Shown here piece after piece: positions 14,015 through 63,120 of a stretch of DNA of 64,000 nt. The notes below the pieces were generated by a model, which had not been told where the DNA came from, made no database searches, and saw only the letters and a list, made by a program, of their open reading frames with translations. The DNA is taken from assembly GCA_030765065.1 (NCBI GenBank), contig CM060977.1:160837052-160901051 (forward strand), written 5' to 3'. How positions within the stretch are numbered: the stretch's first letter is position 1; every line of letters starts with the position of its first letter. The stretch comes from Deroplatys truncata. Lineage: Eukaryota; Arthropoda; Insecta; Mantodea; Mantidae. The position numbers were made by a program, and so were the translations under genes.

Positions 14015-14026
14015 AATTCATAGAAT

Positions 14027-36540: not shown

Positions 36541-36738
36541 CTTTTAGTTTCATATCTAGTCCACTTAATAGGTTTTGAGTATAACACTGCATCCTTTTTG
36601 GCCAGAAAGTCTACAGTCTCGTTACTATTCACTTCCACATGTGCTGGTATCCACAGTAATATTATCTGTTGAAATTTTGTTTGAAGTAATCTATAAGAAG
36701 ATCTCACATCCTTAATATTATAAGATTCATCTGGACTA

Positions 36739-41440: not shown

Positions 41441-43827
41441 CTTACACTAATACCACGATTGTTGTTCCTTTGTGTATATTAGAGCTTTTAGTCCCAGACT
41501 TCAATGAAACTTTGCACATTTTGTTAGTTTGTGTTTTAACGTCGTACATTTTTGTGTGGTATACTCAAAATGCAGTGTAAACCGGAATTTGTTATTTAGG
41601 ATAATCTAGTAATCTAATGCTGCTTACTTGTTCCAGTACCCGATAATTCATGTTGCAGATTCTGATAGTTTCGTTTTTCTTGGTGGTTCTTCTTGCTACT
41701 AGTAAATCCTCCAATTTTTGTTTGTTGAATTGGACTTTGTTGTTTTTTGCCGAGTTTTCTACTTCATATTGTGGTTCTGCTATGCTTTCTTCTTTAGTTA
41801 AAATGATGAGATATCGGCGAAATCTGTTTACTTTACTTTAGTCTGTATATTCCAGATTTAAAAGTGAATTGTAGAACATGATCCAAAAACCAAGACTGCT
41901 GCAGGGGCCCTGTGCCCATCCCTGACTCAATCCCTTGGGCTAAAGTAGTTACTTGCCGGGCTAAAAGGATTCCTGGGGCATTTTATCGCTCTTAGGATAA
42001 CATTTTCCAGGCCACCATGCTCGGTTAAATGCCCTATTAACATCCGGGCATTGTAAACTTCTTTGTTATCCTCCAGGGATTTTTTGACGGTCATGACTGC
42101 ATCTGAATTGTCTTCCTCTGGGAATAAAATCAATATATTATTATGGTATTTTAGGTTTGGATTCGTAATATCGTTCAATTGGTCTTATTTCTTTGATTGT
42201 CGATATAGCAGGGAGGGGTTTTTGGACACTAATCTGAAAATATTGATACTATTGTGATATTCAGTAAGTAAGGGGCCAAAGTGAAAGATCAGATCCTGCT
42301 ATTAATCCTATCTGAAAACTATTCGGCCTACATGTTAAACTCTTAACGGTAGTTGTAGGCTTTGTAGCGATATTTCCGCCGATTAAGAATACATAAAAAG
42401 GAACTCTATAATAATTATATTTTAGGAATTATTAATAATTAACATTCAATTTGATAAATTTCCATAATTTTAAAGCCATAGGATTAAAAATTGTATCAAT
42501 CGAAAGCCCTTCATAAGCTGTAAATATGTTTTAAGTTTTAAAAATGTTGTTAAATAAATAAAGGCGTAATTGCATAAGAAAAGCTGCAAGATTTAGACAA
42601 GAATAAGAGTAGCTTCGTCTTAGACTGTCCATTATGTTTTCCGAGCGTGGGGCCATAAAAATCGAAGCCTTCTTTTGTACTTCGTGGGTATCAGGCAAGT
42701 TTTAAAGTAAACAGACCCTATGAGGTAACGGACATTTCTTACAGTTAAGCTTTAAATTTTCAACCAGGGAACCAATAAACGTAGAGAATAAGTGCGAGAG
42801 CCAATGAAAACATAGGAAGACGCAGTGAGATGTATAAAATTTGGAAGTGAACAGCCGTTGAGATATATGAATGCGAGCGTGGTCTTGAGCAGTCTGCCAT
42901 GATTCTCCGGTAAGGAAACACGCATCACGTTGAGTCAGAAAAAAGAAAAGAATAAAAGTTCCGAAATTTACGAAGTGTCGCACCACAGTGCAATCATAAA
43001 GTAATGCGTGAGGAATAATTACATAAGAGTGTTAGATTGTCGTTGAAATTATTTTATCCAAGATAACAAATAACTTAACACGCCGCAAGTAATGAATTCA
43101 AGTTCGCGGGAATCAAAAGAACGGTGATAGAGCGCCTTAAATAATAAATAATTAGCCGGAGTAAAACGTTAGTGGACCAAAGGGTGAAAATATTCTAATA
43201 TAAGAATCGTATGGAGTAGAAAAAGAACAAGAATCTTGCAGGTTTTCTGGCAGGAATACGCGTTTTAATGAGGTAGTGAAAACGTTTTCTTCAAGAATAA
43301 TATCCTAGTGTCACCCTCCCGCAATCCTACCCTGACAATAACAGTAGGGAATTTCAGACCGACTCGCCGACAGTTGACCCTGAGATGCGACGTCGATAAG
43401 TGCTTCCTGACTGATATCGGCGATCTCGAGTCCTGAAGACTTCACCTACAACGACGCAGAGGTAAAAGTAACACAACAAAGTAGCGCACAAAACGCTACA
43501 GTTTGAGACCTTTCCCAAATTATAAAATTGTCGTCGAAAGGCAACATCCGTCGATTAGGAATTTTTAGTTCCTTATTATGAATAGCACCCACATTTTATG
43601 AAACTGCAGTTCTAAGAGGTAACACTTATCGCACTTATATTGTATGTCTCAGAAGGCTAAGGAAACCAAAGAGAAAACATTTGAAATTCAATAATTCTCC
43701 CGTGCTACGCAATTAGAAGTAATTATCATCATCATTATTATTACTATAATTATTCTTGTTATAGATACAATTTTAATATAACAGTATTGCTTGTGTATAA
43801 TTTGATATAGCTTTATCAGTTTTTTTT
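41441..43827. other. Intergenic DNA, possible old LTR-type sequence
   Basis: No gene recognised. The minus-strand frame at 41927-42178 has no known domain. TATAAAAT occurs at 42833-42840 in a stretch of mixed composition (42600-43510) that could be an old LTR or leader region, but I could not define ends or a target duplication. Confidence 0.35.
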
Positions 43828-44662
43828 AGTTTCTCTACTACGTGTAGTAAGTAGGGGAAATATTGTATTCCACCCAAAAATTCGATACCGAGATTTCATC
43901 GGAAATACATGTTTTGAGGCCCCCTGAATCCAAAAAAAATCATTTTTGGAAACATGTCCATGTGTGTCTGTCTGTGAATAGCATAATTCAGAAACGAACA
44001 GTCGGATAAACACCAAACTTAGTATTTAGGTTTAGTATCTTCCGGAGATGCGACACAAATGTTTTCAAGAAAATCCCCCCACCCCAGATTACCCTTTACA
44101 TGGAACATTTCTCGAAAATTTTTATTTTCTCAAAAATAGCTCTAAGGATTTTAATTAAAATACCATATATTTAAGATACTTTCATGACAAATAAAATGTA
44201 TATCTCGAATTTTCTGGGAATGTCTCCAAAAGCACTCTTCATTGTGAACGACTTTTGCATAACTGGTAAACAATAAGAGATAGACAAAAATTTACTACAC
44301 AAAAAATGTAGATCGCGTTAAAATACACCATTTATGTCACATTTTTTTTTTTGAGTGAAACCATTTTCGTGATATTGCTTGTTATTCCCTTAAATTTTCC
44401 AATACTTATACTTTTTCTCAAATGGAATTCGTTATTCATTTTTTTTGTCCTGTTAATGCAAAGAGAATGGAATACTCCACATAGCAACCAGCTCTTAAAA
44501 TATTTGACGATCGCTTAAAGCCTACGATATTCCCCTTGCATCTACAAGAAAATTAGCAATAAGATTAACATCTCGATTAACACGAAGAATATGGAGAATA
44601 AGCGTTTGTAAAAATAGTTTGTGCAAGAGTAGAGAAAGTCATGTGAGTGTAACACATCAGAT
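43828..44662 (+). repeat. Interspersed repeat family R, copy 7
   Basis: Complete plus-strand copy, AGTTTCTCTACTACGTG to AACACATCAGAT, bordered by T runs on both sides (43821-43827 and 44663-44666). Confidence 0.9.
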
Positions 44663-44829
44663 TTTTCATAACAGACAATGGAGCTGGAATTGAAATGGAA
44701 GAAGTTCTCAAAACATCGAATCACATGGGATATGTTGAACATAAAGAATGCTAAAGTAATTCAAATGATAAGAAGGTGCTTTACACGGGTTAGTGTCTAG
44801 AGAAACCTAAGATAGAATCAGAACAGAGA

Positions 44830-45034
44830 TACGCACCTCCATGGTGCACGATAGCATGACTGCCTTCCAAACAGCACGGGCTGAGATCGAATCTCGGTAG
44901 GGGTAGTATGACTCCATAAGGTTTCTCTGAATTTTCTCTTGTCCTTGTAAGACAAATTTCAGATAACTATCAGCTCAGGGACAACGAGCATATTTGAGCA
45001 TCCACTCATTTCATTCATCATCCCAGCAGACGTG
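44830..45034 (+). repeat. tRNA-derived SINE, 5' part, interrupted by the palindromic element
   Basis: A pol III-type internal promoter is visible: A box TAGCATGACTG at 44852-44862 and B box GATCGAATC at 44885-44893. The body continues to GACGTG at 45029-45034. The 3' part, starting with the same GACGTG, resumes at 60524 on the far side of the 15.5-kb element and ends in an A-rich tail. The exact 5' border is uncertain. Confidence 0.65.
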
Positions 45035-45074
45035 AGTAGGTTATTTAGGACAGACCTGGCGCAGTTTTTTGCGT

Positions 45075-45630
45075 TTATATGGGAAAAGATAGGGAAAACG
45101 AGGGTAGATGCTAGGCTAGGAGAGCATCCAAGGAGGAAAAATGCGTTTATATGGGGGAGATAGGGATTACGAGGAGAGTTGTCAGGCTAGACAGGGGTTG
45201 AAAGGGCAGAATGCACGTTTTATACTGAAGAGATAGGGATTACAAGGTTAGATGTCGACTACACAGGGTTTGAAAGGTCGGAATATATGCTTTATAAGGG
45301 AAAGGATAGGGAAAACGAGGAGAGATGCTAGGTTGAGAGAGTCTTCATAGAGGAAAATGAGTTTATATGGGGGAGATAGGGAAAACGAGGGTAGATGCTA
45401 GGATAGACAGAGGTTGAAGTAGGAGGAATGTGCTTTATATGAGAGTGGCAGGGAATACGAGGTGAAGTGCTAGGCTAGTCAGAGGTCGAGTAGAGTATAC
45501 AATTATATACGAAAAATAGGGAGTAGATGATAATGCTAGACAGGTACTGAAGAAGGGGGAGTACGCGTTTATATGAGGGAGATAGGGAATACGGGGAGAA
45601 ATGCTAGGGAAGACAGGGACTGAAGGTATG
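45075..45630. repeat. Subterminal 72-bp tandem repeats, left arm
   Basis: About eight imperfect units sharing GCGTTTATATGGGGGAGATA, GGGAATACGAGG, GATGCTAGGCTAGACAGG. They start about 40 bp from the element terminus. Confidence 0.85.
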
Positions 45631-46205
45631 TAGGGTGTTTTCCAGAAGGGAAGAGTAAGAATTTCAGAGGTATTTAGAGCACAAGCACAATATAATTATT
45701 TTAGAACACACTTAGAAGCTTTTTAGGTACATGCTTAGCTAACTTTGCAGGTATTCTGATGATGTTTTTAATGCGGTGGAACAGGCATTTGACATCCTCT
45801 TACTGGCTTAAAATATTTTTAGACATAGAAACAGATACGTGTTTTAGGGTATTGGGGTAAGCATTTTAGCCAGTGTACTAGGAATTGTGGAGCATTTTAG
45901 GATTCATTTAGAGACATTTTAGGCACAGGTACAGGTATTTTTTTGATATGAACAAGGCTTTCAGGACATTCTGGTATGAGGCAGGGAATTTTAGGTGTTT
46001 CAGCAGCATTTTGGGAACTGGAGCAGGTAGATTCAGGGTATTTATATAGGTTTCAGAATATTTCGAGGTGTTTTATGATGTTATTAAGGTATTTTGACAA
46101 TTTTAAAGGCGTTTTCAAAGCTCGTGCTAGGAGTGTTTGTGGCTCTTTAAAGGTATTTTAGGTTATGGATGTGGCATAGGCACAGACCATTAAGAGCTCC
46201 TGAAG

Positions 46206-46452
46206 GGCTTTTGGAAAGTGTAATGGCTGTTTTATTGGCTTTTGGAAAGTGCAGTGGCTGTTTTATCGGATTTTGGAAAGTGTAGTGACTGTTTTATCGG
46301 CTTTTGGAAAGAGTAGTGGCTGTTTTATCGGCTTTTGGATAAGTGTAGAGGCTATTTTGTCGGCTTTTGGATAAGTGTAGTGACTGTTTTATTGGCTTTT
46401 GGTAAATGTAGTGGCTGTTTTATGGACTTTTGGAAAGTGCAGTGACTATTTT
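46206..46452. repeat. 31-32-bp tandem repeats, left arm
   Basis: About eight units of the type GGCTTTTGGAAAGTGTAGTG followed by GCTGTTTTATC, with single-base changes between units. Confidence 0.88.
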
Positions 46453-46911
46453 TATGCCATTAGAGTTCCTGGTGGGCTTTTTAGAAAGTGTAATGGTTAT
46501 TTTCATGCTATTGACACATGGTTTTCAGGCATTCTCTCTTGTTTATAGAGTTTTTCTCTTGTATTACACAAGTCTTATGATCTATAACCATTTCTAACGT
46601 TTTTACAGTCATATAGGATCCTTTTATGGTCTTCTCAATATTCTAATGCTAACATGTAAGAAACTATGTAGATATGTCTTTTATAACCCAACCTTAAGCT
46701 CTGATAGTGATATTATTGTTTTTATTCAGCTTTTCTGTTTTTGTATGGTTAATTGTTGGCTAGGTGTATCGTCTTTACCAGTTAATTGATGCTTTATTAG
46801 ATAAGGATTGTAAGGGTAGGTGCCTCTCCCCTTTTATCTAGGCTTGAGACTAGCACTAGGATTTGCTCCTAATGGCAGGGTTACCGCCTCCCTTCCACAT
46901 TCTTATTTTCA

Positions 46912-46917
46912 TTTATT
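46912..46917 (-). promoter_or_regulatory. Poly(A) signal after left polymerase gene
   Basis: AATAAA on the minus strand, about 100 bp after the stop codon; the equivalent signal lies at 58641-58646 in the right arm. Confidence 0.55.
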
Positions 46918-47015
46918 CCTAGGTGTCTGCTAGATGTATACACAGTACATGGTAAACTTCCACTTTTTAAAGTTGTAGACTCACGAGAAACTTATCATCT
47001 AAGGATTACATTCTC

Positions 47016-50000
47016 TTAGGCACTGCTTGTAATGCTGTAATGGCCATATGCATATGTCGTTATTCCATCCTCAGCAACGACTCTTTTATCGTCGTATGGA
47101 GTCAATGCAATTTTATTCACTTGCACTGTGGTAACAGTATGCTTTCGTGACAGGATCAGATTCATGGGCGTCCTTATTATTTCTCTGGCTTTAAGACAGT
47201 CTGTATAACTGTCGAATGTGATGTGCTGCTTAATAACGCCACGTTTTGTACCTTTAATCTTTTTTATGATTGAGCCGTGGATATCTAGCGCATACATCTT
47301 AGGTCGCAGTCCGACAAAGCGTTGGATGATTTTACCATTAGCCTCATCTTTAAATTTTCCAAGCACTTTCTTGTTTAGAGCTGAATAGTATATATGGTTT
47401 GTAGGAGAATCAGCCGTATCCAGATGCTCAAGAAAACGTAGCTTGTCCTTGTACACATCTTCAGTTGTAACTTGATGGATGAATGAATCAGTGTCCATAT
47501 ACATCAGCTTCAGGTTTTCAACTCCATAATGCGGTAACAACACATCATAATGAAAGTGGTACATTAATGTCTTGGAGATGTCCAACACACTCATTCCAAT
47601 GTATATAGGCTTGTTGAAGACGATCTGTCGGGAGGCCATATGCACAGCAGCTAGATTGGTAGCATATATTGTTCGATCGATAAACGTAGGCTTTGCAATT
47701 AACTTTTCCAGAGTCTTCTCGTTTGCCACCAACCGTATATCCACACGATTACGAAGGTTCTCCATTGTTTTTCCAAACATAGCATTGTTGAACAGTTTGT
47801 AGAGATCCTTCTCAAAATCATTTGCAGCCTTTTGTCGTAGTCTGTTGTTAAATTCCACATACGGTTTTAACCACTGTGACTGTCGGAATTGTAGCACACG
47901 ATGGATTTTTGTTAGTCGTAGTCTATGACTAAGAGCTTGCTTCAAAGTCATGTAATGCCCTACATACTTCTTTCGTGATCCAAGGTGAGGAATTAACTTC
48001 TTTGTAGTAGACTCCTTTGGTTTCAAACACTCAGGCAGGAATGGTAAATCATTATGCAGATCATGGAGTTCAGCAGGATACTCGATGTCAACTTCTAATA
48101 TGTATCCATGAGGATCATCTTCTTCTAGTCTTTGTAAGTTTATTTCTTCAGGTGAAACCCACTGAAATCCACCAAAAGGAAGGGCGTGACACATTGCCCA
48201 GCCATATTGGTTATTAGCGTCCTCGTATGTGATGAACTGGGTTGGTCTCGACGGATCAAACTTGTCCATGTAAGTGTTATTAGCCTCTGCATACCTATGT
48301 GAAACTTGGCATAAACCTCCTCTTATGCCGGATTCTACCATGAGTAGTTGGTCATAATCTTGCAACAGTTCCAGCTCGATTCCAGTATACAGTAACATGG
48401 CGTCCCATGTAAGTCCTGGAGAGGTGAAATAATGTGCTGGATCAACTTTGTGCGTTTTGAGAGTTTGTTCTCTGAATGTCTCAAAGACATCAGCTAGAAG
48501 AAGAACATCCGAGATTAAGTAGAGGTTACTGTATTCACCCAGGTTTCTCACATTGAACAGTCTCCATACATTTCTAGCATGTTTGTAGTCAGCATCACTA
48601 ATTTCTTCTTCATTCAGTTTATTATAGAAGCAATTCTTAGGAGGCAGGCAGGTTTCGTTCAAGACGTCCCATGAAGTGACGTAATCATAGGGAAATACAC
48701 CCTTACGTGTCATCAACTTCATCTTGTCTTCTCCGAAGTACTTCAATGTTTCAGGGTACGATGTTAGATTTTTTACCAGCTTATCCAAGCTTGTACTCAG
48801 GAACCGAAAACTATCTACAAACCGAAGCTTTATATCTCCTACATACTTGGAGAATGAGATATAGCTTTCTTCAGAGCTAGGAATTACCTCCACACGTTCA
48901 CTTGTACATCCCAACTCCTTAACAATGAAGTGTGAGTCATACCCACTGAGGTTGTGCATGAAGACTGGAATATATGTAGGCGTTTTACAGGCTAAATTGC
49001 ATTCATTATGAAGACTTCCCCGATATTCACCACTGATGTGATCATGGTCGCGTACTTTATAGTTCACTTCTGTAAAGGTTTTTCCACACAAGTAGCATAC
49101 TGTAGAGGCGATGAAATCCTTTTGCTGTTGATCCGTAAGTTTCAGAGGCTTGGTAGATTTGTATATATTATCAATCTCCTTTGCAAGGGATGTTAGATAT
49201 TCCATAAACTTCTGAGCAGCATCATAACCACGATATACATAGGGTTGCTTAGGAAGACCAGTTTCGAGGTGTTCAACGCTGGTTGATGGTTTAACGTAAA
49301 CACAGAAGCTCATTGCTGTATGCTCTTGATAATGGGTTGTATAAGAAGTTTCAGGACTGGGTATGCATGTATGACATGGAGCGAGAATGCTTTCAAAGTC
49401 TGCATAGATGACGTAAGGTAGTTTCAACATCCTTTCAAAAATTTTAAACTGTACAATTGATTTCTCCTTTGTAGGCATAACTACCCTTGCAACACCATGC
49501 TGATTACAGATGGATGCATGTTCTTGCAGTTTTTTCAGTCCACTTCGTCCATATCGATCGTCAAAATGTGTAAAGCACCGCTTACAGGTATATATCACTC
49601 CATCATGCTTAGTTTTCTGACGTCGAACGAGCTTCTCAAAATTCTTGATATATACATAGTGATGTTTTCCACTACTGTCACTCAATAGTAGGAGGTCACG
49701 GTGGTCAGGCAGTTCAGTGTCAGCAACCTTTATCGGATACACTTCATGCTTCTCATCCAGACCGAAAACGTTGATAGACATCCTATTAAGCTTCTCAAAT
49801 TTAGGTATTTGAGAAAGTGGAGTAGGATAGGAAACGCAGCTGAAGTCGTACTTATCTTGAAGCTGTTTGTATTTACTCACACGCTGTGCATCCTTCTCGA
49901 TGAATTTGGCTAGTACAGAATATATGAAGCATAGCTCATCAGTTAAATTCTGGATGTTAATGCAGGCTTTCCTTGCTTCAATAGATGGCGGTAGTGCTAT

Positions 50001-50669
50001 GTAGCTGCTTCCTCGTAAGGGGTTGTACTTGTTAATACGAAGTCGAATTCCTTCTACAGCAAGCAGAGCCCAGTTGCTACCCTTAAGTTGTGACTCCTCC
50101 ATTTCAGTAACCAACTTCTTCATTTTCGTTTCCAGCATAGAGTCCAGATCCGTTTCTAAGAAAGCAGCTTGATTCCGTGTTTTAAATGTTTTGTCACAGG
50201 TTTCTCCGATACTGTTTACAAATCGGCACTCAACCAGCAGATTAATCTTCACACTCTTGTGAATACCAAGCTCTTTATGCACTGCCTGGATTATTCGTTG
50301 TTTAGCCTCATGCAGGTACATATTCAGGTCCTTAGATGAATCGCATCGTATAAAATACGATTTCAATCGTCCTTCGAACGCTGTCTCGTATTCTTTCATG
50401 TCACAGTCCTCCATTGTGGATAATATGTGATGTTTGGTAGGCTCCAATCTGCTTTTCTTCTGAGGACTGCTTATTTCACATACGTCTTCGTGCCGCTGCC
50501 CCTTATAACCATCATTAAAGGTTACATTACAATGTTTACATTTGAAGAGTCTCTTACAGGTCATCTGATGTCTTCTCTTGTCATAACTTCGGAGGAATTC
50601 CTTTCTACATTTACTACAAGCGTATCCAGTAGCGCTTGGAATAATATTCTTATACGCTGAGTTATTCAT
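47016..50669 (-). CDS. polB: Protein-primed family-B DNA polymerase, left arm copy
   Basis: An intact single-exon gene of 1217 codons. The N-terminus has two zinc-finger-like C2HC modules with identical spacing (C18-C21-H34-C38 and C44-C47-H60-C64); a third is at C362-C365-H384-C388. The exonuclease domain starts at YADFES (D424/E426), with HNLSGYDSHF (exo II, about 572-581) and YLISD (exo III, 717-721). Between exo I and exo II sits an endonuclease VII/HNH-like module: C525-C528, DHDH 541-544, H554-N555, C557. The polymerase domain has motif A with D817 (YEDANNQYG), motif B K958-LFNNAMFG, motif C YMDTDS (D1059/D1061) and KMY (K1124-Y1126). All catalytic acids are present. It belongs to the DNA_pol_B_2 family, which replicates linear DNA from a terminal protein. 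It reads towards the left end of the element. Confidence 0.93.
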   Translation of the reverse strand: MNNSAYKNIIPSATGYACSKCRKEFLRSYDKRRHQMTCKRLFKCKHCNVTFNDGYKGQRHEDVCEISSPQKKSRLEPTKHHILSTMEDCDMKEYETAFEGRLKSYFIRCDSSKDLNMYLHEAKQRIIQAVHKELGIHKSVKINLLVECRFVNSIGETCDKTFKTRNQAAFLETDLDSMLETKMKKLVTEMEESQLKGSNWALLAVEGIRLRINKYNPLRGSSYIALPPSIEARKACINIQNLTDELCFIYSVLAKFIEKDAQRVSKYKQLQDKYDFSCVSYPTPLSQIPKFEKLNRMSINVFGLDEKHEVYPIKVADTELPDHRDLLLLSDSSGKHHYVYIKNFEKLVRRQKTKHDGVIYTCKRCFTHFDDRYGRSGLKKLQEHASICNQHGVARVVMPTKEKSIVQFKIFERMLKLPYVIYADFESILAPCHTCIPSPETSYTTHYQEHTAMSFCVYVKPSTSVEHLETGLPKQPYVYRGYDAAQKFMEYLTSLAKEIDNIYKSTKPLKLTDQQQKDFIASTVCYLCGKTFTEVNYKVRDHDHISGEYRGSLHNECNLACKTPTYIPVFMHNLSGYDSHFIVKELGCTSERVEVIPSSEESYISFSKYVGDIKLRFVDSFRFLSTSLDKLVKNLTSYPETLKYFGEDKMKLMTRKGVFPYDYVTSWDVLNETCLPPKNCFYNKLNEEEISDADYKHARNVWRLFNVRNLGEYSNLYLISDVLLLADVFETFREQTLKTHKVDPAHYFTSPGLTWDAMLLYTGIELELLQDYDQLLMVESGIRGGLCQVSHRYAEANNTYMDKFDPSRPTQFITYEDANNQYGWAMCHALPFGGFQWVSPEEINLQRLEEDDPHGYILEVDIEYPAELHDLHNDLPFLPECLKPKESTTKKLIPHLGSRKKYVGHYMTLKQALSHRLRLTKIHRVLQFRQSQWLKPYVEFNNRLRQKAANDFEKDLYKLFNNAMFGKTMENLRNRVDIRLVANEKTLEKLIAKPTFIDRTIYATNLAAVHMASRQIVFNKPIYIGMSVLDISKTLMYHFHYDVLLPHYGVENLKLMYMDTDSFIHQVTTEDVYKDKLRFLEHLDTADSPTNHIYYSALNKKVLGKFKDEANGKIIQRFVGLRPKMYALDIHGSIIKKIKGTKRGVIKQHITFDSYTDCLKAREIIRTPMNLILSRKHTVTTVQVNKIALTPYDDKRVVAEDGITTYAYGHYSITSSA

Positions 50670-50828
50670 CTTTATTCTTGATGCAATAACGTATTAATCC
50701 TTCTTCAAGGGAAATGTAGGCCTCCTCACCTTGATAACACTTTAGAAAGCTGATTATTCTTGGAGAGAACACGATGTTAACACCGCAAGACTAATTAGCG
50801 CAATGAAGTCCAGTGTCCGCGGTCACCC

Positions 50829-50836
50829 TATCTATA
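50829..50836 (-). promoter_or_regulatory. TATA-box position, left polymerase gene (altered)
   Basis: At the position equivalent to the right arm's TATAAATA, the left arm reads TATAGATA on the minus strand. This is one of the few base differences between the arms that hits an apparent control site. Confidence 0.5.
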
Positions 50837-51012
50837 GAGGGAGCACGAAACTTTTAGATCAATTATATACTGAATTTTAATAATAAAACGATGATTAAGC
50901 GTCTAAACTCTTATATCTCAATACGTTACGCAGGTATTCGGGCGTTTCCGTAGGTGTTCGAACATGTTCGTGTGTTTGGAGAGGTGCTCGAATGCGTTGT
51001 GTATGTATGAGT

Positions 51013-51608
51013 ATGTGAGAGTGGGTTTTGAACTGTCTCTATGTGTGTATGTGTGTGTTTTGAACTGTCTCTATGTATGTGTATGTGTGTATGTCTATGT
51101 GTGTATGTCTGTGCGTGTCTGTGTGTATGTCTGTGTGTGTGTCTGTGTGTGTGTTTTGAACTGTCTCGAGGTGTGTACGTCTGTGTGTGTATGTCTGTGT
51201 GTGTGTCTGTGTGTATATGTCTGTGTTTATGTCTGTGTGTGTATGTCTGTGTGTGTCTGTGTGTGTTTTGAACTGTCTCGGGGTGTGTATGTCTGTGTGT
51301 GTGTGTATGTCTGTGTGTGTGTCTGTGTGTGTATGTCTTTGTGTGTATGTATGTGTGTGTGTCTGTGTGTATGTCTGTGCGTGTCTGTGTGTGTCTGTGT
51401 GTATGTCTGTGTGTGTATGTCTGTGTGTGTGAGTCTGTGTGTGTATGTCTGTATGTGTGTCTGTGTGTGTATGTCTGTGTGTGTATGTCTGTGTGTGTTT
51501 TGAACTGTCTCGGGGTGTGTATGTCTGTGTGTGTCTGTGTGTGTATGTCTTTGTGTGTGTATGTCTGTGTGTGTGCCTGAGTCTGTGTGTGTATGTCTGT
51601 GTGTGTTG
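51013..51608. repeat. Composite TG-rich array, left arm (about 596 bp)
   Basis: TGTGTGTATGTCTGTGTG-type sequence punctuated by TTTTGAACTGTCTCGGGGTG at irregular intervals, so higher-order units were duplicated. The long Cys/Val or His/Thr frames across it are artefacts. The matching array in the right arm is about 200 bp shorter. Confidence 0.9.
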
Positions 51609-52388
51609 ATCAAGAAGAAGAAAGGAATAAAGTAGAAAGGAAGAAGGAAAGAGAAAGAAGAAAAACATAAAGAAAAAAGAAGGAAGGAAATTAAGAATTT
51701 TAATTCAGACCTGAGGATACTTAAGTATACTTATAAATATATGGGTTAAATACTTTTTATTCCAGCCGTATATGTCTCCTAGTTTAATATTTATGAACCA
51801 TTAAATTTTTTATAACATTCGAACAAGGACCACAGGCTACCTAAGTACGTATGACGGTTTAACACAGATAATGAATTATATCTAATAAATACATTTTTGA
51901 TCCACCCTACAACTCCCTTAGTTTAATAGCTATTGATGATTAAATATTTTGCTACTCGAATTCAAGTATCTGATAATAGTAAAAAATTAATCCTTAAATA
52001 GCTTGATTACAATTATTTTCTAATGATACCTGAAAAGTCTTTCACTAAGCCTCTTAGTGCTATAAACGTATTGTGATTTTACCATATTTGTCTAAGTCTT
52101 TTAACTCATTAAGAATTAAACATTTAGGTTTCACCGATCCGAGGTCGGATATGAACTTCGGACTCCTAAATAGTTGTTCAGAGGATCTATCCAATGCTAT
52201 CAATTTAATGTAATTTGTTTCACGAGTCTAGCTGTCCTACTTCAGGAATAATGAAACATCAAAGTTTAAAACTCTGCTGGGATTCGATCTCCATCCCTAG
52301 AGATATCTTTCCGTAAGTAATCAATAATACAGGACTATGTGAATCAATGTTGATGCTAAAAGGGGATAAAGTCAGTAGTTGGTATTTG

Positions 52389-53368
52389 TATGCGAAGTAT
52401 CAATTCTTGGTAGCGATATTTATTTGTAAATCCTCCTAGTTATTAAGATATTTGCTTGGTAAATATCGACGTTTTTAGAACGTTTCAGAAAAAGGCAAGC
52501 AAGGCCTTTTAACAAGACAGATTTGGAGAAACCGCTAGGGTGAAACTCGGACACAATAGTCGTTAAATTGGATACAGGAGGGGGCTTGCGAGAAGGGAAT
52601 GTCCCCTCGCCGGAATAACGTGCGGGCTATAGTGTGCTCCAAAAATTGGTATATAGAATTTCTTATCCTTGTATGCCGCTAACAGAAGGTTTAGCATTCT
52701 TATCAGGGTATTTAAGTACAGAGCGACGCTTGTTAACCTTAAAAGCTAAATATTCCAATATTTTTTCATCGCTTGTGATTCTAATTTGCGAAATTTCTCA
52801 TTGTAATAAAGAGGTGTGCTTTAGTTAGCGAACACCGTATACTAGCCATTCTACGATGCCTTTCAGAACTCTCCTGTTGTATTTTAGCGGATAACACTAG
52901 CGTGTTATCGACCTATACAAATCATCAAGTCCCGGTAGGATGGTGAAAATCAAACCTTTCGATTTTTTAAACATTTACAGTTGTTAGGAGCGTTCGCCAC
53001 AAAAACTGAATCTGGTATTTTTATGTAATGTATATGAGCTGATGGCGTTTAGGTCGGGTCTTGCTCTAAAGCCCTCCACGTGGCCGGGAATGACAAACTG
53101 TCAACTCGCCAGTAACCATAAATTTGATGTTGAACTCTCATGGCATTTAGGTCGGGTCTTGCACGAAAGACCAATTAAACCCAATTTGATGCTGAAGACT
53201 CATGCACTATAGTTCCCCTTTGATTGAAAGACCAATTGAATCAATCAAATAACCATTAATTGATGCAGAAGCCCCATGTACTTTAAGTCCCCTTTGCCCG
53301 TAAGACCAATTAAACCCAATTAAAACCAATTGAACCAATTAAATAACCATTAATTGATGCAGAAACCC
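52389..53368. other. Central spacer of the palindromic element
   Basis: The 980 bp between the arms are present once. They hold no convincing gene; the 64-codon plus-strand frame at 52634-52828 is unrecognised. An 8-bp stem with a 4-base loop (GATAACAC TAGC GTGTTATC, 52890-52909) lies about 20 bp from the geometric centre. Degenerate tandem repeats fill 53035-53368. Confidence 0.7.
53035..53368 (+). repeat. Degenerate tandem repeats in the spacer
   Basis: About four units of 75-95 bp built from TTGATGCAGAAGCCCCATG, TTTAGGTCGGGTCTTGC or AAGTCCCCTTTGCCCG, and AAGACCAATTAAACCCAATT. Confidence 0.7.
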
Positions 53369-54149
53369 CAAATACCAACTACTGACTTTATGCCCTTTTA
53401 GCATCAACAATGATTCACATAGTCCTGTATTATTGATTACTTACGGAAAGATATCTCTAGGGATGGAGATCGAATCCCAGCAGAGTTTTAAACTTTGATG
53501 TTTCATTATTCCTGAAGTAGGACAGCTAGACTCGTGGAACAAATTACATTAAATTGATAGCATTGGATAGATCCTCTGAACAACTATTTAGGAGTCCGAA
53601 GTTCATATCCGACCTCGGATCGGTGAAACCTAAATGTTTAATTCTTAATGAGTTAAAAGACTTAGACAAATATGGTAAAATCACAATAAGTTTATAGCAC
53701 TAAGAGGCTTACTGAAAGACTTTTCAGGTATCATTAGAAAATAATTGTAATCAAGCTATTTAAGGATTAATTTTTACTATTATCTTAGATACTTGAATTC
53801 GAGTAGCAAAATATTTAATCATCAATAGCTATTAAACTAAGGGAGTTGTAGGGTGGATCAAAAATGTATTTATTAGATATAATTCATTATCTGTGTTAAA
53901 CCGTGATACGTACTTAGGTAGCCTGTGGTCCTTGTTCGAATGTTATAAAAAATTTAATGGTTCATAAATATTAAACTAGGAGACATATACGGCTGGAATA
54001 AAAAGTATTTAACCCATATATTTATAAGTATACTTAAGTATCCTCAGGTCTGAATTAAAATTCTTAATTTCCTTTCTTCTTTTTTCTTTCTGTTTTTCTT
54101 CTTTCTCTTTCCTTCTTCCTTTCTACTTTATTCCTTTCTTCTTCTTGAT

Positions 54150-54545
54150 CAACACACACACACAGACACACACAGACACGCACAGACATACACACACAGA
54201 CACACACACATACATACACACAAAGACATACACACACAGACACACACACAGACATACACACCCCGAGACAGTTCAAAACACACACACAGACACACACAGA
54301 CATACACACACACAGACACACAGACATACACACACAGACATATACACACAGACACACACAGACATACACACACAGACGTACACACCCCGAGACAGTTCAA
54401 AACACACACACACAGACACACACAGACATACACACAGACACGCACAGACATACACACACAGACATACACACACATACACACACATAGAGACAGTTCAAAA
54501 CACACACATACACACATAGAGACAGTTCAAAACCCACTCTCACAT
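54150..54545. repeat. Composite CA-rich array, right arm (about 390 bp)
   Basis: Reverse-complement counterpart of 51013-51608 with fewer units; the CGAGACAGTTCAAAACACAC punctuation is kept. The size difference accounts for most of the length difference between the arms. Confidence 0.9.
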
Positions 54546-54722
54546 ACTCATACATACACAACACATTCGAGCACCTCTCCAAACACACGAACATGTTCGA
54601 ACACCTACGGAAACGCCCGAATACCTGTGTAACGTATTGAGATATAAGAGTTTAGACGCTTAATCATCGTTTTATTATTAAAATTCAGTATATAATTGAT
54701 CTAAAAGTTTCGTGCTCCCTCT

Positions 54723-54756
54723 ATAAATAGGGTGACCGCGGATACTGGACTTCATT
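54723..54756 (+). promoter_or_regulatory. Polymerase promoter, right arm (TATA box and initiator)
   Basis: TATAAATA at 54723-54730 and an initiator-like TTCATTG at 54751-54757, 31 bp from the first T of the TATA box to the presumed start A. The polymerase ATG is at 54889. Confidence 0.6.
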
Positions 54757-54888
54757 GCGCTAATTAGTCTTGCGGTGTTAACATCGTGTTCTCTCCAAGA
54801 ATAATCAGTTTTCTAAAGTGTTATCAAGGTGAGGAGGCCTACATTTCCCTTGAAGAAGGATTAATACGTTATTGCATCAAGAATAAAG

Positions 54889-57800
54889 ATGAATAACTCA
54901 GCGTATAAGAATATTATTCCAAGCGCTACTGGATACGCTTGTAGTAAATGTAGAAAGGAATTCCTCCGAAGTTATGACAAGAGAAGACATCAGATGACCT
55001 GTAAGAGACTCTTCAAATGTAAACATTGTAATGTAACCTTTAATGATGGTTATAAGGGGCAGCGGCACGAAGACGTATGTGAAATAAGCAGTCCTCAGAA
55101 GAAAAGCAGATTGGAGCCTACCAAACATCTCATATTATCCACAATGGAGGACCGTGACATGAAAGAATACGAGACAGCGTTCGAAGGACGATTGAAATCG
55201 TATTTTATACGATGCGATTCATCTAAGGACCTGAATATGTACCTGCATGAGGCTAAACAACGAATAATCCAGGCAGTGCATAAAGAGCTTGGTATTCACA
55301 AGAGTGTGAAGATTAATCTGCTGGTTGAGTGCCGATTTGTAAACAGTATCGGAGAAACCTGTGACAAAACATTTAAAACACGGAATCAAGCTGCTTTCTT
55401 AGAAACGGATCTGGACTCTATACTGGAAACGAAAATGAAGAAGTTGGTTACTGAAATGGAGGAGTCACAACTTAAGGGCAGCAACTGGGCTCTGCTTGCT
55501 GTAGAAGGAATTCGACTTCGTATTAACAAGTACAACCCCTTACGAGGAAGCAGCTACATAGCACTACCGCCATCTATTGAAGCAAGGAAAGCCTGCATTA
55601 ACATCCAGAATTTAACTGATGAGCTATGCTTCATATATTCTGTACTAGCCAAATTCATCGAGAAGGATGCACAGCGTGTGAGTAAATACAAACAGCTTCA
55701 AGATAAGTACGACTTCAGCTGCGTTTCCTATCCTACTCCACTTTCTCAAATACCTAAATTTGAGAAGCTTAATAGGATGTCTATCAACGTTTTCGGTCTG
55801 GATGAGAAGCATGAAGTGTATCCGATAAAGGTTGCTGACACTGAACTGCCTGACCACCGTGACCTCCTACTATTGAGTGACAGTAGTGGAAAACATCACT
55901 ATGTATATATCAAGAATTTTGAGAAGCTCGTTCGACGTCAGAAAACTAAGCATGATGGAGTGATATATACCTGTAAGCGGTGCTTTACACATTTTGACGA
56001 TCGATATGGACGAAGTGGACTGGAAAAACTGCAAGAACATGCATCCATCTGTAATCAGCATGGTGTTGCAAGGGTAGTTATGCCTACAAAGGAGAAATCA
56101 ATTGTACAGTTTAAAATTTTTGAAAGGATGTTGAAACTACCTTACGTCATCTATGCAGACTTTGAAAGCATTCTCGCTCCATGTCATACATGCATACCCA
56201 GTCCTGAAACTTCTTATACAACCCATTATCAAGAGCATACAGCAATGAGCTTCTGTGTTTACGTTAAACCATCAACCAGCGTTGAACACCTCGAAACTGG
56301 TCTTCCTAAGCAACCCTATGTATATCGTGGTTATGATGCTGCTCAGAAGTTTATGGAATATCTAACATCCCTTGCAAAGGAGATTGATAATATATACAAA
56401 TCTACCAAGCCTCTGAAACTTACGGATCAACAGCAAAAGGATTTCATCGCCTCTACAGTATGCTACTTGTGTGGAAAAACCTTTACAGAAGTGAACTATA
56501 AAGTACGCGACCATGATCACATCAGTGGTGAATATCGGGGAAGTCTTCATAATGAATGCAATTTAGCCTGTAAAACGCCTACATATATTCCAGTCTTCAT
56601 GCACAACCTCAGTGGGTATGACTCACACTTCATTGTTAAGGAGTTGGGATGTACAAGTGAACGTGTGGAGGTAATTCCTAGCTCTGAAGAAAGCTATATC
56701 TCATTCTCCAAGTATGTAGGAGATATAAAGCTTCGGTTTGTAGATAGTTTTCGGTTCCTGAGTACAAGCTTGGATAAGCTGGTAAAAAATCTAACATCGT
56801 ACCCTGAAACATTGAAGTACTTCGGAGAAGACAAGATGAAGTTGATGACACGTAAGGGTGTATTTCCCTATGATTACGTCACTTCATGGGACGTCTTGAA
56901 CGAAACCTGCCTGCCTCCTAAGAATTGCTTCTATAATAAACTGAATGAAGAAGAAATTAGTGATGCTGACTACAAACATGCTAGAAATGTATGGAGACTG
57001 TTCAATGTGAGAAACCTGGGTGAATACAGTAACCTCTACTTAATCTCGGATGTTCTTCTTCTAGCTGATGTCTTTGAGACATTCAGAGAACAAACTCTCA
57101 AAACGCACAAAGTTGATCCAGCACATTATTTCACCTCTCCAGGACTTACATGGGACGCCATGTTACTGTATACTGGAATCGAGCTGGAACTGTTGCAAGA
57201 TTATGACCAACTACTCATGGTAGAATCCGGCATAAGAGGAGGTTTATGCCAAGTTTCACATAGGTATGCAGAGGCTAATAACACTTACATGGACAAGTTT
57301 GATCCGTCGAGACCAACCCAGTTCATCACATACGAGGACGCTAATAACCAATATGGCTGGGCAATGTGTCACGCCCTTCCTTTTGGTGGATTTCAGTGGG
57401 TTTCACCTGAAGAAATAAACTTACAAAGACTAGAAGAAGATGATCCTCATGGATACATATTAGAAGTTGACATCGAGTATCCTGCTGAACTCCATGATCT
57501 GCATAATGATTTACCATTCCTGCCTGAGTGTTTGAAACCAAAGGAGTCTACTACAAAGAAGTTAATTCCTCACCTTGGATCACGAAAGAAGTATGTAGGG
57601 CATTACATGACTTTGAAGCAAGCTCTTAGTCATAGACTACGACTAACAAAAATCCATCGTGTGCTACAATTCCGACAGTCACAGTGGTTAAAACCGTATG
57701 TGGAATTTAACAACAGACTACGACAAAAGGCTGCAAATGATTTTGAGAAGGATCTCTACAAACTGTTCAACAATGCTATGTTTGGAAAAACAATGGAGAA

Positions 57801-58542
57801 CCTTCGTAATCGTGTGGATATACGGTTGGTGGCAAACGAGAAGACTCTGGAAAAGTTAATTGCAAAGCCTACGTTTATCGATCGAACAATATATGCTACC
57901 AATCTAGCTGCTGTGCATATGGCCTCCCGACAGATCGTCTTCAACAAGCCTATATACATTGGAATGAGTGTGTTGGACATCTCCAAGACATTAATGTACC
58001 ACTTTCATTATGATGTGTTGTTACCGCATTATGGAGTTGAAAACCTGAAGCTGATGTATATGGACACTGATTCATTCATCCATCAAGTTACAACTGAAGA
58101 TGTGTACAAGGACAAGCTACGTTTTCTTGAGCATCTGGATACGGCTGATTCTCCTACAAACCATATATACTATTCAGCTCTAAACAAGAAAGTGCTTGGA
58201 AAATTTAAAGATGAGGCTAATGGTAAAATCATCCAACGCTTTGTCGGACTGCGACCTAAGATGTATGCGCTAGATATCCACGGCTCAATCATAAAAAAGA
58301 TTAAAGGTACAAAACGTGGCGTTATTAAGCAGCACATCACATTCGACAGTTATACAGACTGTCTTAAAGCCAGAGAAATAATAAGGACGCCCATGAATCT
58401 GATCCTGTCACGAAAGCATACTGTTACCACAGTGCAAGTGAATAAAATTGCATTGACTCCATACGACGATAAAAGAGTCGTTGCTGAGGATGGAATAACG
58501 ACATATGCATATGGCCATTACAGCATTACAAGCAGTGCCTAA
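54889..58542 (+). CDS. polB: Protein-primed family-B DNA polymerase, right arm copy
   Basis: Inverted twin of the gene at 47016-50669, also 1217 codons and intact. By eye I find four amino-acid differences: L81 (left H), R89 (left C), I178 (left M) and E379 (left K). All are outside the catalytic motifs; E379 lies within the third zinc-finger-like module. The zinc modules, the exonuclease acids D424/E426, the endonuclease VII-like module and the polymerase motifs (D817, K958, D1059, D1061, K1124) are the same in both. The start is the ATG after GAATAAAG, 166 bp from the TATA box. It reads towards the right end, so the two genes diverge from the centre of the element. No terminal-protein domain is evident ahead of the zinc modules. 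Confidence 0.93.
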   Translation: MNNSAYKNIIPSATGYACSKCRKEFLRSYDKRRHQMTCKRLFKCKHCNVTFNDGYKGQRHEDVCEISSPQKKSRLEPTKHLILSTMEDRDMKEYETAFEGRLKSYFIRCDSSKDLNMYLHEAKQRIIQAVHKELGIHKSVKINLLVECRFVNSIGETCDKTFKTRNQAAFLETDLDSILETKMKKLVTEMEESQLKGSNWALLAVEGIRLRINKYNPLRGSSYIALPPSIEARKACINIQNLTDELCFIYSVLAKFIEKDAQRVSKYKQLQDKYDFSCVSYPTPLSQIPKFEKLNRMSINVFGLDEKHEVYPIKVADTELPDHRDLLLLSDSSGKHHYVYIKNFEKLVRRQKTKHDGVIYTCKRCFTHFDDRYGRSGLEKLQEHASICNQHGVARVVMPTKEKSIVQFKIFERMLKLPYVIYADFESILAPCHTCIPSPETSYTTHYQEHTAMSFCVYVKPSTSVEHLETGLPKQPYVYRGYDAAQKFMEYLTSLAKEIDNIYKSTKPLKLTDQQQKDFIASTVCYLCGKTFTEVNYKVRDHDHISGEYRGSLHNECNLACKTPTYIPVFMHNLSGYDSHFIVKELGCTSERVEVIPSSEESYISFSKYVGDIKLRFVDSFRFLSTSLDKLVKNLTSYPETLKYFGEDKMKLMTRKGVFPYDYVTSWDVLNETCLPPKNCFYNKLNEEEISDADYKHARNVWRLFNVRNLGEYSNLYLISDVLLLADVFETFREQTLKTHKVDPAHYFTSPGLTWDAMLLYTGIELELLQDYDQLLMVESGIRGGLCQVSHRYAEANNTYMDKFDPSRPTQFITYEDANNQYGWAMCHALPFGGFQWVSPEEINLQRLEEDDPHGYILEVDIEYPAELHDLHNDLPFLPECLKPKESTTKKLIPHLGSRKKYVGHYMTLKQALSHRLRLTKIHRVLQFRQSQWLKPYVEFNNRLRQKAANDFEKDLYKLFNNAMFGKTMENLRNRVDIRLVANEKTLEKLIAKPTFIDRTIYATNLAAVHMASRQIVFNKPIYIGMSVLDISKTLMYHFHYDVLLPHYGVENLKLMYMDTDSFIHQVTTEDVYKDKLRFLEHLDTADSPTNHIYYSALNKKVLGKFKDEANGKIIQRFVGLRPKMYALDIHGSIIKKIKGTKRGVIKQHITFDSYTDCLKAREIIRTPMNLILSRKHTVTTVQVNKIALTPYDDKRVVAEDGITTYAYGHYSITSSA

Positions 58543-58640
58543 GAGAATGTAATCCTTAGATGATAAGTTTCTCGTGAGTCTACAACTTTAAAAAGTGGAA
58601 GTTTACCATGTACTGTGTATACATCTAGCAGACACCTAAG

Positions 58641-58646
58641 AATAAA
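58641..58646 (+). promoter_or_regulatory. Poly(A) signal after right polymerase gene
   Basis: AATAAA 99 bp after the stop codon, the mirror image of 46912-46917. Confidence 0.55.
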
Positions 58647-59104
58647 TGAAAATAAGAATGTGGAAGGGAGGCGGTAACCCTGCCATTAGGAGCAAATCCT
58701 AGTGCTAGTCTCAAGCCTAGATAAAAGGGGAGAGGCACCTACCCTTACAATCCTTATCTAATAAAGCATCAATTAACTGGTAAAGACGATACACCTAGCC
58801 AACAATTAACCATACAAAAACAGAAAAGCTGAATAAAAACAATAATATCACTATCAGAGCTTAAGGTTGGGTTATAAAAGACATATCTACATAGTTTCTT
58901 ACATGTTAGCATTAGAATATTGAGAAGACCATAAAAGGATCCTATATGACTGTAAAAACGTTAGAAATGGTTATAGATCATAAGACTTGTGTAATACAAG
59001 AGAAAAACTCTATAAACAAGAGAGAATGCCTGAAAACCATGTGTCAATAGCATGAAAATAACCATTACACTTTCTAAAAAGCCCACCAGGAACTCTAATG
59101 GCAT

Positions 59105-59352
59105 AAAAATAGTCACTGCACTTTCCAAAAGTCCATAAAACAGCCACTACATTTACCAAAAGCCAATAAAACAGTCACTACACTTATCCAAAAGCCGACA
59201 AAATAGCCTCTACACTTATCCAAAAGCCGATAAAACAGCCACTACTCTTTCCAAAAGCCGATAAAACAGTCACTACACTTTCCAAAATCCGATAAAACAG
59301 CCACTGCACTTTCCAAAAGCCAATAAAACAGCCATTACACTTTCCAAAAGCC
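59105..59352. repeat. 31-32-bp tandem repeats, right arm
   Basis: Inverted counterpart of 46206-46452, units of the type CACTTTCCAAAAGCCGATAA followed by AACAGCCACTA; the same unit-to-unit variants occur in mirrored order. Confidence 0.88.
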
Positions 59353-59924
59353 CTTCAGGAGCTCTTAATGGTCTGTGCCTATGCCACATCCATAACCTAA
59401 AATACCTTTAAAGAGCCACAAACACTCCTAGCACGAGCTTTGAAAACGTCTTTAAAATTGTCAAAATACCTTAATAACATCATAAAACACCTCGAAATAT
59501 TCTGAAACCTATATAAATACCCTGAATCTACCTGCTCCAGTTCCCAAAATGCTGCTGAAACACCTAAAATTCCCTGCCTCATACCAGAATGTCCTGAAAG
59601 CCTTGTTCATATCAAAAAAATACCTGTACCTGTGCCTAAAATGTCTCTAAATGAATCCTAAAATGCTCCACAATTCCTAGTACACTGGCTAAAATGCTTA
59701 CCCCAATACCCTAAAACACGTATCTGTTTCTATGTCTAAAAATATTTTAAGCCAGTAAGAGGATGTCAAATGCCTGTTCCACCGCATTAAAAACATCATC
59801 AGAATACCTGCAAAGTTAGCTAAGCATGTACCTAAAAAGCTTCTAAGTGTGTTCTAAAATAATTATATTGTGCTTGTGCTCTAAATACCTCTGAAATTCT
59901 TACTCTTCCCTTCTGGAAAACACC

Positions 59925-60482
59925 CTACATACCTTCAGTCCCTGTCTTCCCTAGCATTTCTCCCCGTATTCCCTATCTCCCTCATATAAACGCGTACTCC
60001 CCCTTCTTCAGTACCTGTCTAGCATTATCATCTACTCCCTATTTTTCGTATATAATTGTATACTCTACTCGACCTCTGACTAGCCTAGCACTTCACCTCG
60101 TATTCCCTGCCACTCTCATATAAAGCACATTCCTCCTACTTCAACCTCTGTCTATCCTAGCATCTACCCTCGTTTTCCCTATCTCCCCCATATAAACTCA
60201 TTTTCCTCTATGAAGACTCTCTCAACCTAGCATCTCTCCTCGTTTTCCCTATCCTTTCCCTTATAAAGCATATATTCCGACCTTTCAAACCCTGTGTAGT
60301 CGACATCTAACCTTGTAATCCCTATCTCTTCAGTATAAAACGTGCATTCTGCCCTTTCAACCCCTGTCTAGCCTGACAACTCTCCTCGTAATCCCTATCT
60401 CCCCCATATAAACGCATTTTTCCTCCTTGGATGCTCTCCTAGCCTAGCATCTACCCTCGTTTTCCCTATCTTTTCCCATATA
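59925..60482. repeat. Subterminal 72-bp tandem repeats, right arm
   Basis: Inverted counterpart of 45075-45630 with the same order of variants, ending about 40 bp from the terminus. Confidence 0.85.
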
Positions 60483-60523
60483 AACGCAAAAAGCTGCGCC
60501 AGGTCTGTCTTAAATAACCTACT

Positions 60524-60566
60524 GACGTGAGTTGTTAAAAATGATTAAGCTCTTTCAAAATAAAAA
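60524..60566 (+). repeat. tRNA-derived SINE, 3' part
   Basis: Begins with the duplicated GACGTG and ends CTTTCAAAATAAAAAA, an A-rich SINE tail. It continues the element interrupted at 45034 and directly abuts repeat R copy 8. Confidence 0.6.
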
Positions 60567-61457
60567 ATCTGATGTGTTACACTCACATGACTTTCTCTAC
60601 TCTTGTACAAACTATTTTTACAAACACTTATTCTCCATTTACCTCATGTTAATCGAGATAAACATTTGCAGACTCTATCTTATTGCTAATTTTCTTGTAG
60701 ATGTAAGGGGAATATATATTTACAAGGGCAGTATCGAAATACCTTTAAGCACATACATATCTCTTAATAGCTGGTTGCTAGGTGCAGCACTATTCCCTTT
60801 CCCACAGATTAATACTCTTTGCATATCCAAGACAAAAAAATGAATAACGAATTCCCATTTGAGAAAATAAGTATTGAAAAATTTAAGGGAATAACAAGCA
60901 ATATCTCGAAAATGGTTCACTCAACAACAAAAATGTATATGACTTAAGTTGTGTATTTTAACGCGATCTACATCTTTTGTGTAGTACAATTTTGTGTATC
61001 TCTTATGGTTTACCAGTTTACCAAAAGTCGTTCACAATGAAGAATACTTTTGGAGACATTCCCAGAAAATTCATGATATACATTTTATTGGTCATGAAAA
61101 TATCTTAAACATATGATATTTTAATCAAAATCGTTAGAGCCATGTTTGAGAAAATTAAAGTTTTCGAAAAATGTTCCATGTAAAGGGTACTCTGTGGTGG
61201 GGGTATTTTCTTGAAAACCTTCTTGTCGCATCTCTGGAAGATACTGAACCTAAATACCAAGTTTGGTGTTTATCCGACTGTTCGTTTCTGAGTTATGATG
61301 TTCACAGACAGACACACACATACACGGACATGTTTCCAAAAATGCTTTTTTTGGATTCAGGGGATCTCAAAAGCATGTATTTCCGGTGAAATCTCCGTAT
61401 CGAATGTTTGGGTGGAATACAATACTTCCCCTACTTACTATACGTAGTAGAGAAAGT
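60567..61457 (-). repeat. Interspersed repeat family R, copy 8
   Basis: Complete minus-strand copy of the variant shared with 33292-34232 and 35670-36540, bordered by A runs. It sits in the A-rich tail of the split SINE. Confidence 0.9.
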
Positions 61458-62083
61458 AAAAATGATTGTTCTTCCACACGCTTAATTCCAAAAAAGGATT
61501 AATTTTTAAAAACTAGGAAGACTTTTGTGGAACTTAATTTCTGTCTGACCTAAAATAAACAAAATATCAACACGAAAAGTTTTGGCAGGTTAGTTTGATT
61601 GCTCATTGCTTGTTCTCTCGAATTCACCGATGCCAATCATCAGCTATTTTACCAATTGCACCTCCGAGGTCGGTAATATAAACACAAGGCTCTTTAAATA
61701 GACGTGAAAATTGGCACGACCTGTATGTCACGACCTCTGGTAGTCTTGCCCTCCCTACCCAAACATACACGTCATTTGGAACTGGTTATGACTTCCGACG
61801 ATGATCTCAAACTAGAGAGCGCTGAGTACCACAGAACTACAGATGCATTATAACTTCACCTGCAGCATATACTAGCATAGTGGTAACTCTTTTGCTTTAC
61901 TGGCAACAGAGGTTTGGACTCCACTTGCTAAAAGAAGTAAATGGTTCTGTGCAGTGGCGGCTCATGAGTATACATTTTGGGTGTTCACAAAATGTTAGAT
62001 TCAGACAGCCCTGAAAATGTAAAATAGCATATACTGCATAATAGTTATGCTTATGAACGGATTGATACAACACAGCTGCTCCC

Positions 62084-62115: not shown

Positions 62116-62135
62116 TAACAATAACAACAACAACA
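62086..62135. repeat. (AAT)n/(AAC)n microsatellite
   Basis: AAT triplets grading into AAC triplets, directly abutting the left end of TIR element copy 3. The other end of that element abuts a further ATA/AAT run at about 63085-63120. Confidence 0.92.
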
Positions 62136-63084
62136 ACACTAGTCTGCATTTTCAAACTTTTCGTCAGATGATTTCATAAAAGTAGGTGTTCTTGAATCAA
62201 GTTTTTATGCTGATTCCAGAAATAACTTCCGTTTTTTTCTATCACTCAGTCTTTACACAAAATAAGTAATGTTTTCACAATTTTATTAATGAGCTTAGAA
62301 AAGTATTCAAATACCATTTCACACAAGGTAAATTTTTATTCAAGAAACATTTTAAGAATACTCTCAAGAACTCCCCTAATTTTTTTCAAACTTTCTCTTC
62401 TTTGACTTCCTTGCAGATCCTTGAAGATGACTGCCCCTCCTCAACATCCAACAGTAGTCGGCCATCATAGTTTCATTCCATCTCCCCTGGTACCTCCTCC
62501 CCATTTCCTTAATATCTTGGTGAAAACGTTCACCCTACTCTTCACTATAATGTCCTAGATTTTCTAGAAAGTAGTCGATATGGGAATGCAGAAACTGCAC
62601 CTTTACACTCATGTTATAACCCATCTTCTTGAAATTTTCCAACATCGTTTCGACAATGGCCTTGTAATTAGGATCTTTGTTATTGCCTAAGAAGTTTTCA
62701 GTAACTGATCGGAAGGCGGTCCAAGCTTCTATTTCTCTCTCATTCATTGTCCTCTCAAAATCTTCATTCTTCATCAATTTATTTATTTGAGGACCAACAA
62801 AAATTCCGGCCTTTAATTTGTCTTGCGTAATGAAGGGAAATTTCTTGGAAAGGTACTTGAAGGAGGGTCCATCCTGTCGTAGAGCCCTTACAAATTGCTT
62901 CATCAAGCCCAATTTTATGTTTAGTGGCGGAAGCAATATCTTTATATCTGTATATTTTTGAAGTGAAATTGTGAAAAAACTGTAAGTGAAAGAAAAAAAC
63001 TAAAAGCAGTTCTGAAATCAGCATAAAAAGTGAGTCAGAATCACTTATTAGCTTTCAGTCATCCGATATCATGCAGACTAGTGT
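62136..63084 (-). mobile_element. 1-kb TIR element, copy 3, within an AAT microsatellite
   Basis: ACACTAGTCTGCAT at 62136 and ATGCAGACTAGTGT ending at 63084 form perfect 14-bp terminal inverted repeats. The interior matches copies 1 and 2. Confidence 0.87.
62388..62960 (-). pseudogene. ERFHQDIK-type ORF of copy 3, interrupted
   Basis: The minus-strand frame reads LPPLNIKLGLMKQFV, DKLKAGIFVGPQI and KAIVETMLENFKKMGYNMS, but has a stop right after GHYSEE where copy 2 continues into GERFHQDIKEMERRYQ. The sequence after the stop still encodes that block. Confidence 0.75.

Positions 63085-63120
<36 letters not shown>
63085..63120. repeat. (AAT)n microsatellite
   Basis: ATTAATAATAAT... continuing the microsatellite on the right side of TIR element copy 3. 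Confidence 0.9.

Follow-up and report, generated by a model that had tools for sequence, protein, structure and literature searches.

The stretch of DNA analysed here (64,000 nt, hereafter the window) carries one insertion of 15.5 kb at 45035-60523, bordered on both sides by the 6-bp direct repeat GACGTG (45029-45034 and 60524-60529). The core of this repeat, ACGT, is palindromic, and its two copies match at six of six bases when read directly as compared to four of six when read as inverted. The element begins with AGTAGGTTATTT and ends with AAATAACCTACT, each of which occurs once in the window, and the termini AGTAGG//CCTACT match (AGT)2//(ACT)2 at five of six positions. Its two halves share an inverted block of 6,237 nt with 99% identity (45030-51266/54292-60528), and an inverted repeat of 7 kb at this level of identity is far beyond chance. 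When the inner blocks are included, the arms cover 45035-52388 and 53369-60523 and are separated by 980 bp of unique DNA (52389-53368). The original prediction of a 15,489-bp unit with AGTAGG...CCTACT ends and a GACGTG duplication was confirmed at 45035-60523 with the duplication on both sides, and the two inverted arms that it described could be refined to unequal arms of 7,354 and 7,155 bp plus the spacer. Joining the flanks (400 bp each) revealed no junction-spanning copy in the window that would represent an empty site. The features of the locus are as follows.

45029..45034, + strand: target-site duplication GACGTG, left copy
45035..52388, + strand: left arm, 7,354 bp, starting with AGTAGGTTATTT
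45035..45640, + strand: left terminal iteron region with six GATAGGGA cores
46206..46452, no strand: 31-bp tandem array, 7.9 copies, left arm
47016..50669, - strand: protein-primed DNA polymerase gene (pPolB), left arm, 1,217 aa, reading from the centre outward
51021..51690, no strand: left-arm purine tract and degenerate GT-rich array, with 198 bp lacking a counterpart on the right
52389..53368, no strand: unique spacer, 980 bp
53369..60523, - strand: right arm, 7,155 bp, inverted copy of the left arm, ending with AAATAACCTACT
54072..54565, no strand: right-arm counterpart of 51021..51690, a pyrimidine tract and CA-rich array
54722..54729, + strand: TATA-like box TATAAATA, upstream of the right pPolB
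54889..58542, + strand: pPolB, right arm, 1,217 aa, reading from the centre outward
59106..59352, no strand: 31-bp tandem array, 7.9 copies, right arm
59918..60523, - strand: right terminal iteron region with six GATAGGGA cores at offsets identical to those on the left
60524..60529, + strand: target-site duplication GACGTG, right copy

From the terminus inward, each arm carries the iterons, the 31-bp array, AATAAA signals, pPolB, the TATA-like box and the GT/CA-rich array, beyond which another 0.7 kb or so of the arm is unique. The GATAGGGA cores lie 54, 125, 198, 271, 341 and 547 bp from the end, the first five with a period of about 72 bp, and a single further match was found in the remainder of the window. 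The AATAAA signals are located beyond the pPolB 3' end, on the terminus side. At the place matching the right TATA-like box, the left arm reads TATAGATA, an altered TATA. The spacer has no second copy elsewhere in the window and no Met-started ORF longer than 56 aa.

As predicted, each arm carries one intact pPolB gene, and both ORFs are open over 1,217 codons. The two copies differ at four residues (81, 89, 178 and 379), none of which affects a catalytic motif. The sole Pfam match above the cut-off was an EndoVII stretch (residues 522-560, E 2.8e-5) and the NCBIfam search returned no match for pPolB; nuclease insertions are on record in Polinton pPolBs according to PMC11071308. Alignment with relatives revealed the pPolB motifs together with a candidate linking residue, Ser198, and a vOTU pair, Cys247/His337, all of which support the proposed protein-primed polymerase. 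The structure model of the N-terminal part gave a little-finger match, albeit in a weak model (mean pLDDT 42.5), and that of the polymerase half had a mean pLDDT of 36.5, TPR1 and TPR2 not being seen in so poor a model. From its sequence, the polymerase is predicted to be a protein-primed family B enzyme of the Polinton/adintovirus type with terminal-protein and vOTU domains. Two C2HC-type finger-like motifs were also observed near the N-terminus (right pPolB residues 18-64, 54940-55080), neither of which was seen in the aligned L005 and L006 proteins, and a third finger-like motif (C362, C365, H384, C388) is shared by all 7 rows of alignment A6, from which L012, lacking that part, and L014 were omitted.

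Direct comparison identified pPolB relatives on eight contigs, two in IMG/VR and six in bacterial MAG records, with tblastn identities of 33-38%; those in the bacterial MAG records are probably foreign DNA. Contigs L001, L002 and L004 were dropped for want of a pPolB match. Among phage records, only EndoVII stretches matched, in four Vibrio phage records, and no pPolB relative was found among plasmid records. Further virus-type genes are present on five of the eight contigs: an rve integrase, a Pox_A32 ATPase and an S74 fibre on L006, PLA2 and a fibre on L005, rve and PLA2 in one ORF and an Adeno_PX protein on L010, an IVa2-like ATPase on L011 and a double-jelly-roll protein (E 1e-54) on L013. 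For L009, L012 and L014 (contigs of 3-5 kb), the matches of 18 queries included no further virus gene. In the adintovirus-like contig L010, from a bacterial MAG, the ORF at 897-2114 is predicted to combine a PLA2-like domain with the rve integrase core. The window pPolB grouped with L010 in an exonuclease-polymerase tree (94/97, slightly below the program's mark for a firm fork) whose deeper forks are weak; this tree comprises only the pPolBs found here, with L011 and L012 being 98% alike and from one MAG, and, built without named Polintons, bidnaviruses and linear plasmids, it gives no placement among known Polinton clades. Six contigs include the pPolB 3' end: L005, L009 and L010 end 114-310 bp beyond it and L006, L011 and L012 continue past it, with further genes on L006 and L011. 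These contig ends weakly suggest that pPolB may have been the end gene of the parent genome.

When 28 proteins of L005, L006, L010, L011 and L013 were compared to the window, only the L006 polymerase gave a convincing match, the best among the other 27 having an E-value of 0.17, in agreement with the claim that the arms hold no other recognisable gene. For an rve-type integrase, tblastn over the window gave a best E of 0.46 with the L006 query and nothing at E 1 with that of L010. The L005, L006 and L011 ATPase-type proteins, the L013 double-jelly-roll protein and other queries for a packaging ATPase and capsid found nothing in the window, and no protease match was obtained there, the sole protease-like query being uncertain (L010, Peptidase_C5, E 0.067, below the cut-off). 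The five remaining ORFs of at least 120 aa in 44000-62000 are low-complexity GT/CA frames; among Met-started ORFs of at least 45 aa in the left terminal 2 kb and the centre, the longest has 61 aa. The relatives' queries and the ORF lists support the predicted absence of integrase and capsid genes. Hidden integrase or virion genes were rejected as candidates, only the polymerase being recovered by the 28-protein search; the element may carry a very divergent or spliced integrase gene.

The element was then set against known systems. It resembles Polintons/Mavericks (including adintoviruses) in its size, 6-bp target-site duplication and AGT-type ends, as well as in a pPolB with terminal-protein and vOTU domains and a nuclease insertion. 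It differs from them in that no integrase, ATPase, capsid or protease gene was detected and in carrying two pPolB genes in mirror image. Furthermore, its inverted repeats measure about 7.2 kb, as compared to the 46-1,447 bp given for intact vertebrate Mavericks in PMC8097293. Nine Polintons on record lack capsid, protease and ATPase genes (PMC4028283) and share this triple loss with the element, whereas the account given of them there mentions no palindromic structure. Long terminal inverted repeats are also a feature of the linear genomes of PgVV and many Polinton-like virus contigs, as described in PMC4642659; Polinton-like viruses are, in contrast, defined by a capsid and packaging-ATPase module that is not present in the element. 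Bidnaviridae combine a Polinton-derived pPolB with a linear genome that forms a panhandle through its terminal repeats, according to PMC4061559 and PMC4938981. Bidnaviruses also possess parvovirus-type helicase and capsid genes; the ORF lists show no further ORF beside pPolB in the element. The linear plasmids with pPolB are extrachromosomal, whereas the element is an integrated copy with a target-site duplication. A deletion derivative of such plasmids (e.g. kalilo) reportedly forms hairpins. Cytoplasmic and mitochondrial pPolB linear plasmids are replicators without a virion, and insertion with a 6-bp duplication is not part of the description given of them in PMC11071308. The element is Polinton-like in polymerase, target-site duplication, ends and size and departs from Polintons in its repeat length and in the integrase and virion genes; rather than a Polinton, the most fitting name for it is a Polinton derivative, which would function in the manner of a linear plasmid. 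Among the matches listed in the literature search, there was no palindromic or polymerase-only Polinton and no palindromic plan with pPolB in both arms, and a further search found no adenovirus fold-back precedent.

The arms differ from one another by 37 substitutions and 7 indels, with 17 of the substitutions and 5 of the indels (the largest of 198 bp) falling in the GT/CA array at 51021-51690. Five differences lie in the ORFs (four nonsynonymous, one synonymous), and nothing in them suggests selection on the polymerases after the arms parted. Outside the GT array, differences become more frequent towards the centre, with 9 in 5,635 outer sites versus 11 in 1,049 inner sites (Fisher p 6e-5, for a split chosen after the data were seen). 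A test that requires no split gave a mean distance from the end of 5,013 against 3,413 expected, a value as large being reached in 32 of 100,000 resamplings. Selection on the gene accounts poorly for this gradient, given that only one of the five ORF changes is silent. The gradient would follow either from exchange between the ends as the element replicates or from chromosomal gene conversion; the outer 2 kb hold four differences, two of which lie at most 31 bp from the end, and these two count against both processes.

Taken by itself, an arm looks like one end of a Polinton, its pPolB 3' end directed at the terminus, and a mirror copy occupies the place of the rest of the genome. We consider it somewhat more probable than its negation that the element derives by deletion from one end of a genome of the Polinton/adintovirus type, arose by fold-back and works as proposed here. 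Protein-primed strand-displacement synthesis would have run inward from one end past the polymerase gene, whereupon the growing strand would have turned back upon itself, leaving a loop of some 980 nt, and served as its own template out to the terminus. The product would be end-pol-spacer-pol-end, with the loop becoming the spacer and whatever stood 5' of pPolB being discarded. Snap-back synthesis with a 980-nt loop fits exactly the observed plan. Once formed, the element would transcribe pPolB from the centre outward; the terminal-protein domain would prime on the AGTAGG ends via Ser198 and the vOTU protease (Cys247/His337) would free the primer domain. The strand displaced by the polymerase could pair with itself as a 7-kb hairpin, the end of its stem offering an origin once more, and exchange between arms in such cycles would keep the ends alike. 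A clean 6-bp duplication needs an integrase and the element seems to be without one, so that the integrase would have to act in trans, supplied by some other source of rve, such as a full Polinton.

The claim that two copies of one Polinton end were joined stands in part: the anatomy fits the duplication of one end, and no mark diagnostic of fold-back was found. Similarity at the inner edges of the spacer was not above chance (reached by 142 of 1,000 shuffles), and the spacer hairpin had a z of -1.6 over 20 shuffles. A palindrome extending, diverged, into the whole spacer was likewise rejected (279 of 300 shuffles). Several other observations count against the favoured reading, namely the single copy of the element in the window, the altered left-arm TATA, the lack of a selection signal in the polymerases, the end-gene status of pPolB being backed by only three of six contigs and the weakness of both structure models. 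The position of two of the four outer differences next to the end speaks in particular against homogenised ends.

A rather unlikely alternative is that an ordinary Polinton was inserted and that a later break was repaired by inverted copying of one end up to the opposite terminal repeat, at the expense of the other half, the palindrome never having replicated as such. Short terminal repeats would let repair stop at the old right end with the duplication kept, chromosomal gene conversion could also yield the divergence gradient, and the single known copy and the missing sign of purifying selection between the arms agree with this scenario. Nothing decisive stands against it, but it requires a second, unlinked event at the site, whereas fold-back would take a single step that strand-displacement replication can be expected to produce. 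It is less probable still that the palindrome was a dead by-product of the defective-interfering type, made in replication and inserted once by a helper's integrase without propagation; it would have the identical anatomy and the integrase was not found, yet both pPolB frames are still intact, although a young dead copy would show likewise. An assembly fold-back or mis-joined repeat, an error to which long inverted repeats are prone, is very improbable given the 37 substitutions and 7 indels between the arms, including 198 bp in the GT array, the unique spacer, the differing flanks and the matching outer 6-bp duplication, a combination not expected from a fold-back read. The case that the element is real and not an assembly fold is strong but indirect.

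The element might tentatively represent a family of palindromic replicons without capsid or integrase, which we regard as doubtful. Having two protein-primed origins and two self-priming polymerase copies, these would be multiplied inside the cell as linear or hairpin DNA and be re-inserted by the integrases of resident Polintons, as parasites autonomous in replication and dependent in integration. To our knowledge, Polinton replication has so far been inferred from sequence. An element pared down in nature to a polymerase and two ends would permit a direct test of the replication minimum, a self-primed polymerase and a terminus, and would demonstrate that one element can replicate while leaving its integration to another. 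The fold-back errors expected in strand-displacement replication may have left a natural record in its mirror symmetry, and the element suggests a route from a virus-like transposon to a plasmid-like replicator.

Other repeats were observed in the window. An apparent 3.3-kb repeat with inverted ends of approximately 0.9 kb lies at 33285-36550, and solo ends of its family (1389-2125, 11501-12371, 24928-25801, 43823-44669 and 60557-61464) are about 80-96% alike in pairwise pieces; two of these, inverted, bracket the Polinton-like element. A repeat of about 1 kb is present in three copies (12998-14017, 19029-20037 and 62135-63095) that are 92-94% alike, two of which contain an ORF (19326-19994 and 62535-62999, - strand) for which Pfam gave nothing at E 0.1. 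Finally, the window starts with a perfect (GT) array of 714 units (1-1429).
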